A DNA stretch of 45,786 nucleotides, taken from positions 1 to 45,786 of the forward strand of contig JANTGM010000044.1 in the NCBI GenBank assembly GCA_024762925.1, written 5' to 3'. How positions within the stretch are numbered: position 1 is the stretch's first letter; the number at the start of each line of letters is the position of its first letter. Shown here piece by piece: positions 1,890-8,330 of this stretch. Below the pieces are notes generated by a model. The model did not search any database, had not been told where the DNA came from, and saw nothing but the letters and a program-made list of their open reading frames with translations. The translations under genes and the position numbers were made by a program. The DNA is from Kofleriaceae bacterium (lineage in GTDB: Bacteria > Myxococcota_A > Polyangia > Haliangiales > Haliangiaceae).

Positions 1890-2864
1890 ATGCACAGCCC
1901 CCTCCAACGACACCTTGTTTTCGGTCTCTCTCTATTGCTCGCCAGCGGCTGTGTGAGCGACGAAGATGGTAGCGATGGCAACCCAAGTGGCGGCATCGAT
2001 GGCGGCGGGCGTATTGATGAGTTTGTCGATGCTGCACCACCCGAGGCTTGCGAGAAGATGGACATCCTCTTTGTCATCGACAACAGCGGCTCGATGAGCG
2101 AAGAGCAGAGCAACCTCATTGCCAATTTCCCCGGATTCGCGCAACTCATCGAGAACTACCAAACCGCCAGTGGCGAGCCTCTCGACTACCGCATCGGCGT
2201 GACCACAGCTGGGCGCGATGTTAGCTACACCATCACGCTTCCGATTCTAAACCAGAGCATTCCCTTCACGGAGGGCGGCGACAATGGTGTCTTTCGCGGA
2301 GGCTGCGGCCTCGAGCGTCAATGGATTGAAAAGGGCGACCCAAATGTCTCGTCCACCTTCGCGTGCCGCGCTGACGTTGGAACGAGCGGACCTGGTGCCG
2401 AGATGCCTCTCTTGGGCTTGGAATGGTCGCTAAACCGGCGCGCAACAGATGGCACCAATGCGGGCTTCCTTCGCGATGATGCCCTGCTCGCCGTTGTCAT
2501 GATCACCGACCAGGATGACTGCTCTCGGGAAGACGATGGCTTCGTTATCGATGGCAATCGACCAAGCTGTTACACACCGGGAGATACCGGCATCACGCCA
2601 CTATCCTTCTACCTCGATTTTCTCGACACCCTAAAGGGCGGGCGGGGACGCTGGGCAAGCGCCGTGATTGCTGGCCCAGGGCCAGGGAGTTGCACATCGT
2701 CGTTTGGTGAGGCAGCAGAGGCCGAGCGTATGATTGATTTCGTGAATCAAGCAGGTGATAACTCGAGCCTTAGTTCGATCTGCAGTGGCGACCTAACCTT
2801 GGCCTTGCAGCAAGCTCTGGACACCTTTGAAGCTGCTTGTAACCGCTTCCCACCGATTGAGTAA
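1890..2864 (+). CDS. Secreted lipoprotein with von Willebrand factor A domain
   Basis: A 324-residue exported protein. The start at 1890 gives a short signal (MHSPLQRHLVFGLSLLLASGC) with a lipobox-like end. A low-complexity Asp/Gly/Ser spacer follows, then a vWA domain beginning at KMDILFVIDNSGSMSEEQ. This holds the complete DxSxS of the metal-ion-dependent adhesion site. A later VVMITDQDD segment fits the fourth strand and the Asp of the MIDAS. Ten or so Cys residues suggest disulfides outside the inner membrane. Lipidated vWA proteins are numerous in myxobacteria; their ligands are mostly unknown. An upstream in-frame ATG (1725) would remove the signal peptide from the N-terminus and is unlikely. 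The small membrane protein gene follows after 4 bp. Confidence 0.88.
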   Translation: MHSPLQRHLVFGLSLLLASGCVSDEDGSDGNPSGGIDGGGRIDEFVDAAPPEACEKMDILFVIDNSGSMSEEQSNLIANFPGFAQLIENYQTASGEPLDYRIGVTTAGRDVSYTITLPILNQSIPFTEGGDNGVFRGGCGLERQWIEKGDPNVSSTFACRADVGTSGPGAEMPLLGLEWSLNRRATDGTNAGFLRDDALLAVVMITDQDDCSREDDGFVIDGNRPSCYTPGDTGITPLSFYLDFLDTLKGGRGRWASAVIAGPGPGSCTSSFGEAAEAERMIDFVNQAGDNSSLSSICSGDLTLALQQALDTFEAACNRFPPIE

Positions 2865-2868
2865 GACT

Positions 2869-3090
2869 ATGGAGTTTCTGGATTCTCTGTCATGGCCGCT
2901 GGTCGTGCTCGCATGCCTCACCTTGGGGCTGGCCCCCTTTGTTCCCGAACCGCACATCTGGGAAAAACTGCAACTGCTCTTTGCTGGCAACCTGCGAAAG
3001 CCCATCGACATCTTTGACATGCTGATGCACGGAGCTCCGTGGCTGGTTCTCGTTGCAAAGCTCGGAGTCCTGGCGCTGCGAGGGCGCTAG
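2869..3090 (+). CDS. Small two-helix membrane protein (family often annotated 'RND transporter')
   Basis: A 73-residue protein with a hydrophobic N-terminal segment (WPLVVLACLTLGLAPF), an amphipathic middle (HIWEKLQLLFAGNLRKPIDIFDMLMHG) and a second hydrophobic segment (APWLVLVAKLGVLAL). This pattern, especially E-P-H-x-W-E-K-L and P-I-D-I-F-D-x-L-x-H-G-x-P-W, is one I associate with short conserved proteins that databases label 'RND transporter' although they are far too small to be pumps. Its role is unknown. The start codon lies 4 bp after the vWA stop, so the two genes are probably cotranscribed. An RND pump remnant lies 3 kb away on the other strand. Confidence 0.75.
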   Translation: MEFLDSLSWPLVVLACLTLGLAPFVPEPHIWEKLQLLFAGNLRKPIDIFDMLMHGAPWLVLVAKLGVLALRGR

Positions 3091-3249
3091 CGTTGGCTAG
3101 TGCGCGATTCATGAATATAGAACGCGCTCACTCGTCTTCTCGCCCGCTGGACTGGCTCTGCCAGTCTTCTTCGTTTTTCATCGGTCGCTTGCCCCACTTC
3201 TAGCGAGCAACCAGATTTGCTCGTCGCCGATCCCCGAGCGTGAGCTGTT

Positions 3250-6000
3250 CTAGGACGCAAGCACCTCGGCGAGCTTGCCGAGTAGGGCGTCGATGGTAAA
3301 GGGCTTAGCCAGGAAGTGAATCTCTTCGGGAATGATGCCGTGGCGGCCCATGACGTTCTCGGAATATCCCGACACGAAGAGGATTTTGGCGTCGGGCTTC
3401 TTCTTCCACAGCGCTTCGCTGAGCTCACGACCGTTCATCCCATTCATGACCACGTCGGTGACGATGAGATCGCAGGATTCCGCATCGAGGACCGCGAGAG
3501 CATTCGCGCCACTGTCGGCGACCAACACCTTGCAGCCCCCTGCCTCCAACATGCTCTTGACCGTCGCACGCACGCTGGCTTCGTCCTCCACGAGGAGGAC
3601 GGTCGTGCCCACGAGAACGTTGGGCTTCACGCCTTGCTCGGAGAGAGCGAGCGTGGCCTCTCCCGCCGCAGCGGGAAGGAGAGCACGCATCGTCGTGCCC
3701 GCCCCGGGCGTGCTCTCGACCAGCAGCTCGCCGCCAAGTTTCATGATGATGCCGTACACCGTCGAGAGCCCGAGCCCGGTACCGTGCTCGAGCCCCTTCG
3801 TCGTGAAGAAGGGCTCAAAAATGTGCTCGCGGGTCTTTTCATCCATGCCCATGCCGGTGTCGGTCACTTCGAGCTCCACATAGCGTCCGGGGAGCAGGGT
3901 CGATTCGCCCGCGCTCAGCTCGCGCATCGAGGTTCGGATCGTGAGCGATCCGCCAGTGGGCATGGCATCACGAGCATTGACAACCAGGTTCATGATGACC
4001 TGCTCCATCTGGGGTGGATCGCACTCCACCAGGGTGGATGCCTCGGCAGTCTCGATTTCGAGGTGAATGTCCTCACCCAGGACCGGATCCAAAAGCTCGG
4101 CGATCCCTGCCACGGTTTCGTCGAGCTCGACCTTCTGGAGCTTCACGTCCTGCTTGCGCGAAAAGGTCAGTAATTGCCGAGTCAGAGCCGCGGACTTTTC
4201 CCCTGCCGATTCGATCATCTCGACCATCTCCAGCATCGAGTCACTGAGCTCCTTCTTTCGTCGCATTAGGCTGGCAGTACTGATGATCACCTGCAAGTTG
4301 TTGTTGAAGTCGTGTGCAACGCCTCCGGCCAGGGTGCCCAGAGCTTCGAGCTTCTGGGACTGCCTCAGCTGATGTTCAAGGCGGCGGCGGGCCTCGATGT
4401 CTCGGGTCACTCCGATCACCGAGATACCATCGGCATTGTGGCGAACCACCCGGGCACTGATCTCGACCCACACCCCACAGCCGTCCTCAGTCAAGAGCTC
4501 AACTTCCTCGGCGGGAATGTGAGCACTGTCCTCGTTGCCTTTGTTGACGCGAGTGATCGCGCCTCGCAGTTTTTCAAGAAGCTGACTCCGGCTTGCGGAG
4601 GACAGGGTCTCTTCGAGGAGGAGCTGGCCAAGGTCCGGGGGGACCAGCCCAGTGAGACGCTCGAAGGAGGGGCTCAAGTAGGTGAGGCGCAGCTCCTCGT
4701 CCGCCGCCCAGATGACATCGCTGACGTTCTCTGCAAGCAAGCGATAGAGCTGCTCGGTGTCCCGCTTGGTCTTCAGCAGAGTACGAAACTCCTCGAACAG
4801 GTCCCCGAGCTCATCGTCTCGGTAGTCCAAGACCGCTTCAGTGAGCTTGCCGGTCTTCATGATTCGACGCATGGTGGACCGGGTGCGAACGATGGGAGCG
4901 GAGATCGAATGGCCGGCATAAAAGGCCGAGATGGGCGCCCAGGCGATAACAACGATGAGAAAGGCGATGAACGCAAAGAGGAAGGAGTGGCCGCCCAAAG
5001 CGGGGAAGCGCATCGCGGCCACCAATAGCTCCCCCGACGGCGTCGGACGGTATTTGAGAAGGGTTTGAGAGGGCGCGTTGATAAGAGTCCCGCTCGTTCC
5101 CTCCAGCAGGGCCTGCTCCAGGCGGCGACGGAACAGCGGAAACGAGGCATCGAAGTTGGCGAGCGCCGGCATCTGTCGCGATAGCTCTCGGGCATTTGTG
5201 GTGAAGACGATGGCGGGGACCGGTTCTCCACCGCTTCCCTCGATGCTGACTTCTCGCAGGTCGTAGGGCCTGGGCACGGCCTTGTCCTGCTCGGGTTCCG
5301 ATGCGGTCAATAGAACGCCGCCCAAGGCCAGCTCCGCAGCGCTCTGAAAAGAGTCTATGTGGCGAACGTAGGCCACACTGGAGAGCCACAGCGTGGGAGC
5401 CACCACGAAGGCCAGCGCAAGCCACACCAGCTTGCGCTTGAGCGAGGAGCTGCGAGTCGGGAAGGTCACGCCATCGAGCGCCAGCCTGGCGCCGAAGGCA
5501 TTGTGAATCGCTGGTAGGTGCGCATGCACCACAGGAGCGCAGATTCCCACGCCCCCTACGAAGAGGGCAGCGGAGAAGATCGCTGTTCCGGTTCCAACAG
5601 ATAGCGTCGTCGGAACTCGCTCGGGGAAGACGCGTAGCCACACCTGCGTAGCCAGGACGTAACGAAGAAACCACGTGAAGGAAAAGAACCAGGGGAAGTA
5701 GCGGGACAGACGCCAGGACTTCTTGGCCACCGCCAGGGTCTCTTCGGAGGACAGCTCCCCCTTCTCGAAGGCGGGCGCGGCACGGCTGATGGCGCGAGCC
5801 ATGCCCCAGTACACACCGCTCCACGTGAGCAGCATCGCGAGAAAGATCGCCACGAGTACCGAAACGATCAGCTGCGGTTCCGCCCAAAAATCGATGCCGG
5901 CGAGGTCGATGTAGGCTGCACCGACCAGCAGCGAAAAGGGCATTTCCAGGAGGAGCAGGACCGACAGATAGGTCCGGCGTAGTTGTTGCCTAATGCTCAA
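3250..6000 (-). CDS. Membrane-bound PAS hybrid sensor histidine kinase with C-terminal receiver
   Basis: A 916-residue two-component kinase. Hydrophobic segments near residues 11-34, 43-65, 133-160, 191-213 and 337-363 place a sensory region of about 120 residues between the fourth and fifth helices, probably periplasmic. A HAMP-like linker (360-412) leads to a PAS domain (about 418-540). The HisKA domain holds the phospho-accepting H563 in GGVAHDFNN. The ATPase has an N box at NLVVNARDAM (671-680), a D box at D714-T-G-M-G and a GTGLGLS lid. The receiver (about 797-916) holds acceptor D849 and K899. Signal and target are unknown, and no separate response-regulator gene is adjacent. Translation appears to start at TTG 6000, directly after a pentanucleotide repeat that supplies the purine-rich ribosome-binding site. 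It follows the RND pump remnant on the same strand, suggesting descent from a metal-efflux operon. Confidence 0.93.
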   Translation of the reverse strand: MSIRQQLRRTYLSVLLLLEMPFSLLVGAAYIDLAGIDFWAEPQLIVSVLVAIFLAMLLTWSGVYWGMARAISRAAPAFEKGELSSEETLAVAKKSWRLSRYFPWFFSFTWFLRYVLATQVWLRVFPERVPTTLSVGTGTAIFSAALFVGGVGICAPVVHAHLPAIHNAFGARLALDGVTFPTRSSSLKRKLVWLALAFVVAPTLWLSSVAYVRHIDSFQSAAELALGGVLLTASEPEQDKAVPRPYDLREVSIEGSGGEPVPAIVFTTNARELSRQMPALANFDASFPLFRRRLEQALLEGTSGTLINAPSQTLLKYRPTPSGELLVAAMRFPALGGHSFLFAFIAFLIVVIAWAPISAFYAGHSISAPIVRTRSTMRRIMKTGKLTEAVLDYRDDELGDLFEEFRTLLKTKRDTEQLYRLLAENVSDVIWAADEELRLTYLSPSFERLTGLVPPDLGQLLLEETLSSASRSQLLEKLRGAITRVNKGNEDSAHIPAEEVELLTEDGCGVWVEISARVVRHNADGISVIGVTRDIEARRRLEHQLRQSQKLEALGTLAGGVAHDFNNNLQVIISTASLMRRKKELSDSMLEMVEMIESAGEKSAALTRQLLTFSRKQDVKLQKVELDETVAGIAELLDPVLGEDIHLEIETAEASTLVECDPPQMEQVIMNLVVNARDAMPTGGSLTIRTSMRELSAGESTLLPGRYVELEVTDTGMGMDEKTREHIFEPFFTTKGLEHGTGLGLSTVYGIIMKLGGELLVESTPGAGTTMRALLPAAAGEATLALSEQGVKPNVLVGTTVLLVEDEASVRATVKSMLEAGGCKVLVADSGANALAVLDAESCDLIVTDVVMNGMNGRELSEALWKKKPDAKILFVSGYSENVMGRHGIIPEEIHFLAKPFTIDALLGKLAEVLAS

Positions 6001-6023
6001 TCCCTTCCCTTCCCTTCCCTTCC
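6001..6023. repeat. Pentanucleotide tandem repeat (TCCCT, 4.6 copies) abutting the kinase start
   Basis: Four full units of TCCCT plus TCC, read as GGGAA/AGGGA on the coding strand, end exactly at the TTG start codon of the kinase. The repeat is itself Shine-Dalgarno-like. An ATG at 6035-6033 opens an 11-codon frame (to Asp) through the repeat. That frame ends at a TGA overlapping the TTG start. Loss of one 5-bp unit would place this ATG in frame with the kinase. Confidence 0.9.
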
Positions 6024-6052
6024 ACCCAAATACATTCTACTGGAAGGAAGGG
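6012..6052 (-). promoter_or_regulatory. Imperfect hairpin in the kinase leader that pairs part of the repeat
   Basis: Bases 6012-6024 pair with 6041-6052 in a 12-bp stem with one bulged base. On the transcript, a CCUUCC-rich arm pairs with the GGAAGG repeat, and the loop holds the ATG at 6035-6033. About two repeat units remain unpaired next to the TTG start. There is no following T-run, so a terminator is unlikely. Control of ribosome access is an inference. Confidence 0.5.
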
Positions 6053-6061
6053 CCTTATTCA

Positions 6062-6313
6062 TCAGTGGCGCCTTGGTTTGTCGTTTCTAGAGAATTGGTC
6101 CTCAATACGCGCCTCCACTGAAACGGCTCGTTTCGTCGTACCTTTCCATATGGCGAAGATGGCAGGATAAACAGTCAACTCGAGAAAGAAGGACGAGACG
6201 AGCCCGCCAATCATTGGTGCCGCGATGCGCTTCATGACGTCGGCGCCCGCTCCCGACGCAAACAAGATCGGCGTTAGTCCTATCATCGTCGTCAAGACAG
6301 TCATGTCCCTCTA
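6062..6313 (-). pseudogene. C-terminal remnant of a heavy-metal RND efflux pump (CusA/CzcA-like)
   Basis: About 80 codons read MTVLTTMIGLTPILFASGAG, followed by DVMKRIAAPMIGGL and a final membrane segment ending in YPAIFAIWK. This is the end of the last transmembrane helices of CusA/CzcA-type pumps, which are normally about 1040 residues long. Everything upstream is missing. An in-frame TAG occurs only three codons before the first Met, and no signal or start context is present. The remnant lies 61 bp upstream of the histidine kinase on the same strand, as expected for a former pump-kinase operon. The upstream boundary holds a 10-bp direct repeat shared with the stop region of the MBL gene. 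It is not expected to be functional. Confidence 0.85.
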
Positions 6314-6346
6314 GCGCCGAGGCGTAAGCCCTCAAGGTCCCTCTAG
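6305..6346. repeat. 10-bp direct repeat pair GTCCCTCTAG at the RND deletion boundary
   Basis: GTCCCTCTAG occurs at 6305-6314 and 6337-6346, separated by 22 bp. The left copy supplies the TAG that closes the remnant RND frame. The right copy supplies the TAG stop of the MBL lipoprotein gene. Short direct repeats at the edge of a truncated gene are typical of a slippage or deletion scar. Confidence 0.8.
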
Positions 6347-7281
6347 GGATTCTCCACCGGCGCAAAGCTCGCCTTGGCAGCGAGTTCCAAAATCACAGGA
6401 AGCTTGTCGTCGCCATGCTCTTCCATCATGGCGGAGATCAGCTCTTCTGCAGTACTACTAGATGTTCTTAGCCTCTCAAAGTCGCTAATGTAGCCCCTAG
6501 TTGCCGTCAAGGAAGAAGGAGTACTTCCCGTCCCCGGGGCGCTGTGTCCTGGTACCACAGCTTTGGGCTTCATCCCTCCAATGCGAGTCAACGTCTCAAG
6601 CCAAGCTGTGCGCTGCTCTGGGCTCGGGGTATCGGCAAGCCATGTGTGCACACCGGAATAGACCAAGTCCCCGGCGACAATCAACTCGAGGGAAGGCACA
6701 TGAACGGCGGTCGAAAACTCTGAATCCGATTGTTCCAGAGGTAGAAATTCAACCCGCTTGCCCTCGAGTTCTAGAAAGGAATCGGTGTCGGGCGTCGCGG
6801 TGATGGGTTCGGCGGTCAAGTCCTCCTGATAGATAGGCCCCCAATAAGCCAGTTTCTGCGGACCCAAGACCTTCATGTGCTCGACCACTTCAGTGGTGGC
6901 ATACATTGGGGTATTGGGAAATTTCTCAAGAACCTTTTCGACCCCGAAATAGTGATCGGGATGGGCGTGGGTGATGTAGATGGCAGCCAAGTCCACGCCT
7001 TTCTCCTCAATCCAGGAGGCCAGGCGCTCGCCATTGCCGAGAGTAAACTGGGCGTCAACGAGAATCGCTTTCTCCTCGCCGGAGATGAGAGTGGAGTTGG
7101 CATAGAAGCCCTTTTCATCCCCCGTAAACACCTCAAAGCTCAGCCCAAGCTCCCCCTGAGCAGTCTGCGCTTTGGGCACGGACTCGGTAGCGCAAGCGCC
7201 GAGGGTGAGGCTGGCAACAAGGGCCAAGGACGACAGGGAGGTTAAGAGTGTCGGTGTTTTTCGGATGCTTTGGTTTGCCAT
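6343..7281 (-). CDS. MBL-fold metallo-hydrolase lipoprotein
   Basis: A 312-residue exported hydrolase. The start at 7281 (MANQSIRKTPTLL) gives a signal peptide with a good lipobox (LTLGAC, Cys30). An upstream in-frame start at 7359 would bury the signal. The metal-binding core T-H-A-H-P-D-H lies at residues 104-110. Later GDLVYSG and VVPGHSAPG segments provide the remaining Asp and His ligands of a two-zinc site. The layout resembles the broad glyoxalase II / subclass B3-like group of secreted metallo-hydrolases. The substrate cannot be told: lactones, thioesters or xenobiotics are all possible. It is divergent from a LysR regulator with a palindrome in between, so it is probably the regulator's target. 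The stop codon lies in a direct repeat next to the RND remnant. Confidence 0.88.
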   Translation of the reverse strand: MANQSIRKTPTLLTSLSSLALVASLTLGACATESVPKAQTAQGELGLSFEVFTGDEKGFYANSTLISGEEKAILVDAQFTLGNGERLASWIEEKGVDLAAIYITHAHPDHYFGVEKVLEKFPNTPMYATTEVVEHMKVLGPQKLAYWGPIYQEDLTAEPITATPDTDSFLELEGKRVEFLPLEQSDSEFSTAVHVPSLELIVAGDLVYSGVHTWLADTPSPEQRTAWLETLTRIGGMKPKAVVPGHSAPGTGSTPSSLTATRGYISDFERLRTSSSTAEELISAMMEEHGDDKLPVILELAAKASFAPVENP

Positions 7282-7373
7282 GATTTGACTACGCTTTCTG
7301 CGGTGAAGACGGGCCTCATTGCCCGCCAGATGGAAACACCATGCCGGGAACGTTCTCATGTCACAAACTCATA

Positions 7374-7389
7374 ATACTCATGCAAGTAT
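7374..7389. promoter_or_regulatory. Candidate LysR operator between the MBL and LysR genes
   Basis: ATACT-CATGCA-AGTAT is a perfect inverted repeat with a 6-bp spacer. It sits in the 122-bp divergent region, 15 bp before the LysR start. An overlapping imperfect arm (CTCATAAT ... AGTATGAG) extends it. The size and AT-rich arms fit a LysR-type binding site; binding is inferred from position. Confidence 0.5.
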
Positions 7390-7403
7390 GAGATATTTTC
7401 ATT

Positions 7404-8330
7404 ATGCAGGATCCGGCATCCCCCCTCTCTCATGTCAATCTCAACCTCTTCCCGGTGCTCGCAACCCTCTTGCGCACCCACTCGGTGACCAAAGCCGCCA
7501 TCGCCCTCGGTGTCGGACAGTCGGCCGTTAGCCACGCTCTGCGAGAACTGCGTAGCCTTTTAGAGGATCCACTTCTCGTCCGCACCGCCCAGGGAATGGA
7601 GCCCACTCCTCGTGCCCTCGAACTCGCCCCCCATATCAACCTGGCTCTAGAAAGCCTTTCCGCCGGTCTGCGCCAAAACCCGCAATTTGATCCCGCTCAA
7701 TCCAAGCGACGTTTCTCCATCGCCGCCACTGATGAGCTCGCAACCAATTTTCTTCCCGCCTTGGTAAATCTCTTAGAGAAAGAATCTCCCGCCAGCCAAC
7801 TCTCCATCGAATCCACAGGCCCCGAGCACGATCTAATGCGCTTGCGTCAAGGACAGATCGACATGCTCATTGGCCTCGCTCCCAAAGGAAGCAAGGCAGG
7901 TCTGTGCCTCGACTTTGTCTATGAAGACTCCTTCGTCTGTGTTCTCCGCTCCGCTCATCCCAAATTGGCAAAGCGGATGACGATGAAGCGATTTTTGGAA
8001 TTGCCCCACATCCTCGTATCCCCCGACGGCCACGGCCTGGGCATGGTGGATGTGGAGCTTGCCAAGCTTGGGCACAAACGCCACATCTTGGTCTCCACTC
8101 GCTACTTCCTAAGCGCCCCCGAAATCGTCGCTAGCACCGACTGTGTCCTCACCTTGCCCACCCGCTTTGCAAAGAGAATGGCCGAGCGCCTCGACCTCGC
8201 TATCCTCAAAGCTCCCATCGACATTCCGAGCTTCTCGGTCTACTCAATCACCTCCAAGACCCGTGGTAGCGACCCCGCCCTCGCTTGGCTCGGCAAGGCG
8301 GTGGCCCGCGCCTCAACCTCCATTGTCTAA
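7404..8330 (+). CDS. LysR-family transcriptional regulator
   Basis: A 308-residue regulator. The N-terminal winged helix-turn-helix begins at NLNLFPVLATLLRTHSVTKAAIALGVGQSAVSHALRELR, the classic LysR recognition region (about residues 12-70), and is followed by the linker helix. The remainder is a two-lobed effector-binding domain from about residue 94 (RRFSIAATDELATNFLPALV) to the end, resembling the NodD/LinR-like branch. It lies head-to-head with the MBL lipoprotein gene, the usual arrangement for a LysR activator or repressor and its target. The effector is probably a substrate or product of that hydrolase, which is an inference. It starts at ATG with no strong ribosome-binding site. The stop is TAA. 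Confidence 0.93.
   Translation: MQDPASPLSHVNLNLFPVLATLLRTHSVTKAAIALGVGQSAVSHALRELRSLLEDPLLVRTAQGMEPTPRALELAPHINLALESLSAGLRQNPQFDPAQSKRRFSIAATDELATNFLPALVNLLEKESPASQLSIESTGPEHDLMRLRQGQIDMLIGLAPKGSKAGLCLDFVYEDSFVCVLRSAHPKLAKRMTMKRFLELPHILVSPDGHGLGMVDVELAKLGHKRHILVSTRYFLSAPEIVASTDCVLTLPTRFAKRMAERLDLAILKAPIDIPSFSVYSITSKTRGSDPALAWLGKAVARASTSIV

Follow-up and report, generated by a model that had tools for sequence, protein, structure and literature searches.

Several bacterial repeat loci resemble the one described here. In Haemophilus influenzae, the (GACGA)4 tract of hsdM loses one of its four units at a high rate (PMC2651432). Other relevant cases are the sensor kinase genes bvgS of Bordetella (PMC1891110) and flgS of Campylobacter (PMC3930126), the pil1 leader of Streptococcus gallolyticus (PMC3894217) and the TAACTGA repeats of marine Beggiatoaceae (PMC4679880). 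A literature search found no paper on a phase-variable tandem-repeat histidine kinase in taxa named Myxococc-. The DNA analyzed here is from a Kofleriaceae bacterium (assembly GCA_024762925.1, contig JANTGM010000044.1, positions 1 to 45,786), and this whole stretch of 45,786 nucleotides is referred to as the window. It contains a pentanucleotide array immediately before the start codon of a hybrid histidine kinase gene. An earlier note on this DNA had proposed that the array may switch the kinase on and off; the analysis below favors a role as the ribosome-binding site of the gene. The features concerned are as follows.

3250 to 6000, minus strand: hybrid histidine kinase of 916 aa with a TTG start (Pfam scan, translation)
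6001 to 6023, minus strand: (GGGAA)n array of 4.6 copies (TCCCT on the plus strand), probably the repeated Shine-Dalgarno (SD) sequence of the kinase (TRF, predicted 16S pairing)
6002 to 6019, minus strand: G3-N2-G3-N2-G3-N2-G3 quadruplex motif on the mRNA strand, with a fifth G-tract at 6025-6027 (sequence, ViennaRNA with quadruplex term)
5997 to 6062, minus strand: upstream ORF of 21 codons running through the array from ATG 6062 to TGA 5999-5997 and including ATG 6035 (sequence)
6062 to 6304, minus strand: 80-codon remnant of a CusA/CzcA-type RND efflux pump, from its C-terminal end (Pfam, TIGR00914)
6343 to 7359, minus strand: gene for an MBL-fold hydrolase, upstream of the remnant (Pfam scan)

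The array, the kinase gene and their surroundings

In the present frame the kinase is intact. It contains PAS, HisKA, HATPase_c and receiver domains, all of them near full-length Pfam matches, and the presence of HisKA, HATPase_c and a receiver in one chain identifies it as a hybrid histidine kinase. A HAMP match was under the curated cut-off (21.2 of 25 bits). The top model for the C-terminal half was CckA; the protein is not called CckA because the score of 352 bits is below the cut-off of 1000. As the earlier note had described, a TCCCT repeat touches the TTG of this gene: TRF detected a perfect array of 4.6 copies (23 bp, 100% matches) at 6001-6023, adjoining TTG 6000-5998. On the minus strand, the array GGAAGGGAAGGGAAGGGAAGGGA leads straight into the start codon, the order being ...TGATGAATAAGGCCCTTCCTTCCAGTAGAATGTATTTGGGT, then GGAAGGGAAGGGAAGGGAAGGGA, then TTGAGCATTAGG....

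Array statistics were obtained from 2,045,786 bases, comprising the window and 100 stretches of 20 kb (~30% of the 6.79-Mb assembly); ORF starts in the genome counts are the first start codon per long frame, not annotated genes. The kinase-leader array was the only perfect period-5 array of at least 18 bp in this sample, and five order-4 Markov simulations of equal size produced none, so the array exceeds chance. The 20-base pattern TCCCT x 4 has a single occurrence in the entire 6.79-Mb assembly, and the only one of 30 family genomes to contain an 18-base part of the array is its own. Seven period-5 arrays of at least 14 bp were present in the 2.05-Mb sample, and the kinase-leader array was the only one at an ORF start (defined as -12 to +30 bases from the start of an ORF of at least 200 codons); a looser cut of at least 13 bp placed 3 of 31 there, the kinase-leader array included. 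A perfect tandem array beyond chance, with a unit that is not a multiple of three, is the form expected of a contingency locus. The array is real yet solitary, and the examined part of the genome is without a set of such loci. Two other long non-triplet arrays were recorded in the same 2.05 Mb: (TC)11.5 at L103:9591-9613, ~120 bp upstream of a 285-codon ORF and touching no start of an ORF of at least 150 codons, and (GAATTAA)4.4 at L136:10237-10267, where two ORFs of at least 150 codons converge and neither start is touched.

In the contigs of 84,980 species (the database's own description of a set from which the window's genome may be left out), (GGGAA)3GGGA is followed directly by ATG, GTG or TTG in seven stretches, whose ORFs are candidates read from sequence alone. 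In two of them, the ORF begun by this codon exceeds 100 codons (L152, 125 codons; L153, 129 codons), and in the other five it is short (14-66 codons); in the L148 stretch, a 91-codon ORF begins 22 bases further on. Repeated GGGAA before a start codon is therefore rare, not unique. The L153 stretch (7580-7601), from a proteobacterial MAG, in which the GGGAA array leads directly into ATG and the 129-codon ORF, may be a second array in the SD position.

The 80-codon ORF upstream of the kinase matches positions 968-1019 of 1021 in Pfam ACR_tran and positions 983-1042 of 1051 in TIGR00914, the latter with 52.9 bits; the TIGR00914 cut-off of 701 refers to the whole protein, and a lower score is expected from a fragment. 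The best other match in the genome (46% identical) lies inside a 1058-codon open frame, and the ORF is therefore a remnant. Lying between the MBL-fold gene and the kinase, it marks the junction of a rearrangement or insertion. In one congener (G001), a 56% identical MBL gene is back to back with a LysR-like gene, the same arrangement as in the window (the LysR nature of the congener's neighbor was read from sequence, not profile-scanned), and is followed by another ORF. Because neither remnant nor kinase occurs there within the 1.5 kb compared, the remnant-plus-kinase piece appears to have been added at this site. No such MBL match is present in G002, the third genome of the genus.

An interspersed repeat of ~100 bp lies just 3' of the kinase (window 3097-3198) and begins with CTAGTG on the plus-strand side. 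BLAST returned 45 pieces of it in 2.05 Mb, the window copy counted, on both strands, and 25 near-full copies were aligned. Two copies form a directly tandem pair in C18, two lie close together in C120, and several are situated near contig ends. A search of the other 27 family genomes, among them two congeners, gave no match to the repeat, and Rfam gave none up to E 1 in window 2900-3300; the repeat looks like a species-specific MITE-like element. Across window 2500-8000, there was no Rfam match at the gathering score, and no sigma-70-like promoter was found between 5900 and 7500.

Reading frames and the start of the kinase

The frame arithmetic of the earlier note holds. ATG 6035-6033 reads M-Y-L-G-G-R-E-G-K-G-R-D and stops at TGA 5999-5997, which overlaps the TTG, and translation of the alleles showed that loss of one unit or gain of two puts this frame into that of the kinase. 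Overlooked there was ATG 6062-6060, from which this frame runs without interruption, making the upstream ORF 21 codons long. This ATG overlaps the TGA (6064-6062) of the 80-codon ORF (TGATG), and the kinase TTG in turn shares bases with the upstream ORF's stop codon (TTGA), a geometry suggestive of translational coupling. Read from ATG 6035, the frame ends after 12, 16, 11 and 7 codons with 0, +1, -2 and -3 units, respectively. In all out-of-frame alleles considered (0, +1, -2, -3 and +3 units), the stop of the upstream ORF falls either at the TTG, as in the present allele, or 9-11 bases inside the kinase, as in the +1 allele. Fusion alleles carry an N-terminal extension of 19 or 24 residues if read from ATG 6062 and of 10 or 15 if read from ATG 6035. 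Reinitiation is established behavior of overlapping genes, and termination beside a strong SD would favor it. Since the upstream ORF ends at or just inside the kinase start, reinitiation would be expected in place of shut-off, and no allele would then need to be OFF.

Predicted pairing with the 16S tail (the standard tail, assumed as the anti-SD and not read from this genome) amounts to -8.3 kcal/mol for the 17 bases at -20 to -4 before the TTG; of 292 ORFs with a single clear start, 5.8% pair at least as strongly. The prediction stays at -8.3 for -1, 0, +1 and +2 units, with -6.9 at -2 and -3 units and -3.3 at -4, whereas the upstream starts have weak predicted sites (-3.0 for ATG 6062 and -2.0 for ATG 6035). 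Genome-wide use of SD sequences is modest (mean of -3.37 vs -3.14 kcal/mol for shuffles; 28% vs 25% below -5), and the frequency of the SD motif peaks at -14 to -10. As a start codon, TTG is generally weaker than ATG. The array directly adjoins the TTG, so the distance to the start is constant, with the last AAGGG but one lying 6 bases away at any unit number of at least about two; while about two units remain, loss or gain of units would thus leave the start working.

Homologs were used to examine the position of the start. Matches to the N-terminal 410 residues of the kinase are present in 9 of 317 class genomes, its own included; in a set of 377 genomes from the phylum, 4 match the N-terminus, of which one is its own and two had already appeared in the class set. 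Neither set contains a close ortholog of the N-terminus, none was confirmed in the contigs of 84,980 species or found in plasmids, and the congeners G001 and G002 (82% and 86% complete) have no match; the genomes searched include only one of this species. The match reaches the N-terminus in seven of the eight other class homologs; L030, covering only residues 321-409, was excluded from the start comparison, as was L042 (residues 336-409). Relative to TTG 6000, the nearest ATG lies 5 residues before in L029, 2 before in L025, 1 before in L026 and L028, at the same position in L024, and 2 and 3 residues after in L027 and L023, which places all seven between 5 residues before and 3 after. L025, L026 and L029 are without any further upstream start candidate in the open frame; such candidates exist in L023, L024, L027 and L028, for which the nearest ATG was chosen. 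When the seven are aligned with MAFFT, L023 begins in the ninth column and the other six in the first; identity is low, at only 21-24%. Because seven distant homologs begin within 5 residues of it, TTG 6000 is probably the ancestral start position, and the kinase is probably ON in the present allele. Within the limits of such low identity, the N-terminal extension of the fusion alleles would not be a family feature.

Collectively, these results suggest, with a probability of roughly 0.65, that the array is the ribosome-binding site of the kinase, that translation starts at TTG 6000 and that the number of units scarcely matters. GGGAA would be an SD-like motif that slippage has copied to 4.6 units, and ribosomes would start at TTG 6000 either directly or by restarting once the 21-codon upstream ORF has been translated. 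A change of frame would only add an N-terminal extension in fusion alleles, from a weak upstream ATG, and copy number would be near-neutral for the kinase start. The analysis shows the sequence geometry, the predicted strength of SD pairing and the start position in distant homologs; from these we infer that the TTG is used in vivo, that the upstream ORF is coupled to the kinase and that copy number has a near-neutral effect.

Alternative roles of the array

The switch envisaged in the earlier note would make the array a contingency locus, in which units slip in the population, the -1 and +2 alleles give an N-terminally extended and differently expressed kinase, and other alleles give less or none. 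The perfect array, its non-triplet unit and the frame arithmetic all stand, and slippage is plausible at such a length: (GACGA)4 suffices for fast switching in H. influenzae (PMC2651432), and sensor kinases are already known as targets, through C6/C7 in bvgS (PMC1891110) and in flgS (PMC3930126). The upstream ATG as the ON state is not supported, given that distant homologs start near the TTG, that the TTG has a strong predicted SD and that both upstream ATGs have weak ones. Also against switching are the constancy of predicted SD strength from -1 to +2 units and, in the 2.05 Mb, the lack of any other array of period 4, 5, 7 or 8 (longer cuts) at an ORF start, with the two longest other non-triplet arrays also away from ORF starts; homopolymers were counted in this sample, and placement relative to starts covers periods 4, 5, 7 and 8 and those two arrays only. 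Phase switching is possible, not favored, and we regard it as unlikely. Another explanation is plain drift, by which a purine-rich spot slipped by chance and has no selected role even as an SD. Occurrence of the 18-base motif in one of 30 family genomes is consistent with this, as are the five of seven similar arrays in other bacteria whose start codon opens only a short ORF, but the position of the array and its predicted pairing strength fit an SD well, making drift very unlikely.

Two further explanations invoke the structure of the leader RNA. Four G3 tracts with short loops lie over the SD on the mRNA strand, as they would for a quadruplex at a ribosome-binding site, and an RNA G-quadruplex folding there could throttle translation of the kinase (through potassium, temperature or a helicase), with unit number setting its stability. 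The canonical G3N2 motif coincides exactly with the ribosome-binding site, and the 6.79 Mb contain only two G3N2x4 motifs; among the 38 motifs with loops of up to 7 in the 2.05 Mb, the kinase-leader array is the only one near a sense-strand ORF start (1411 ORFs of at least 150 codons). Allowing a quadruplex changes the ViennaRNA predicted energy from -40.2 to -52.3 kcal/mol, a gain that is smaller at -1 unit and gone at -2; the predicted fold could hide the SD of the array, a point against the SD explanation. A quadruplex near the start codon reduced translation in the work of Holder and Hartig as described in PMC11087576, which also reports enhanced translation in vitro from a quadruplex about 40 bases ahead of the SD. 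However, the G-tracts come automatically with a repeated GGGAA SD, none of the other 29 family genomes searched contains the 18-base motif, and no four-tract motif occurs in the 30 bases before the chosen start of the seven homologs; throttling by a quadruplex is accordingly judged improbable. Equally doubtful is a model in which unit number sets the quadruplex G-tracts and, together with the fused or coupled upstream ORF, would give heritable grades of kinase and two N-terminal forms. If such tuning were true, the bacterium would grade a signaling protein by repeat number while never turning it off. Leader-peptide attenuation as in pil1, where repeat number would determine where the upstream ORF stops with respect to a regulatory stem-loop, finds some agreement in the pentanucleotide array inside a short upstream ORF, in a stop that moves with unit number and in a pyrimidine tract (CCCTTCCTTCC, 6052-6042) that pairs with the array in predicted folds. 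The hairpin of this tract and the array was rejected as a candidate: its fold does not surpass that of shuffled sequences (z 0.25), and 28% of 300 upstream-shuffled versions reach the same quality of fold. No terminator or strong stem-loop follows the repeat ORF in the kinase leader, and no terminator-like site lies near the kinase start; the single such site in 5900-7500 is at 6208-6192, inside the RND remnant, and shuffles average 1.4. Attenuation is thus hardly probable at all.

Comparison with described repeat loci

If its role is that of a ribosome-binding site, the array illustrates how a non-triplet repeat in contact with a start codon can mimic a phase switch while its predicted strength as a ribosome-binding site is nearly independent of unit number. 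The (GACGA)n tract of hsdM in H. influenzae is, like the kinase array, a short pentanucleotide repeat of approximately four units in which loss of one unit shifts the frame; it lies inside the reading frame, so that the shift truncates the protein, whereas the kinase array stands before a good start codon (PMC2651432). For Bordetella bvgS and Campylobacter flgS, the likeness is in the type of gene, both being sensor kinase genes that switch by slippage (PMC1891110, PMC3930126). In bvgS, the repeat is a homopolymer within the coding region and the alleles are demonstrated, whereas the array here is outside the kinase frame and is represented by one allele (PMC1891110). The GCAGA repeat of S. 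gallolyticus pil1 is likewise a pentanucleotide array in a short upstream ORF whose stop is shifted by units, but it has 22 units and a downstream terminator (PMC3894217), whereas the kinase leader has 4.6 units and lacks any terminator-like site close to the start. The TAACTGA repeats of marine Beggiatoaceae are also tandem short units that end beside start codons; they form a large set with little SD character, whereas the Kofleriaceae locus has one array with strong SD character (PMC4679880).
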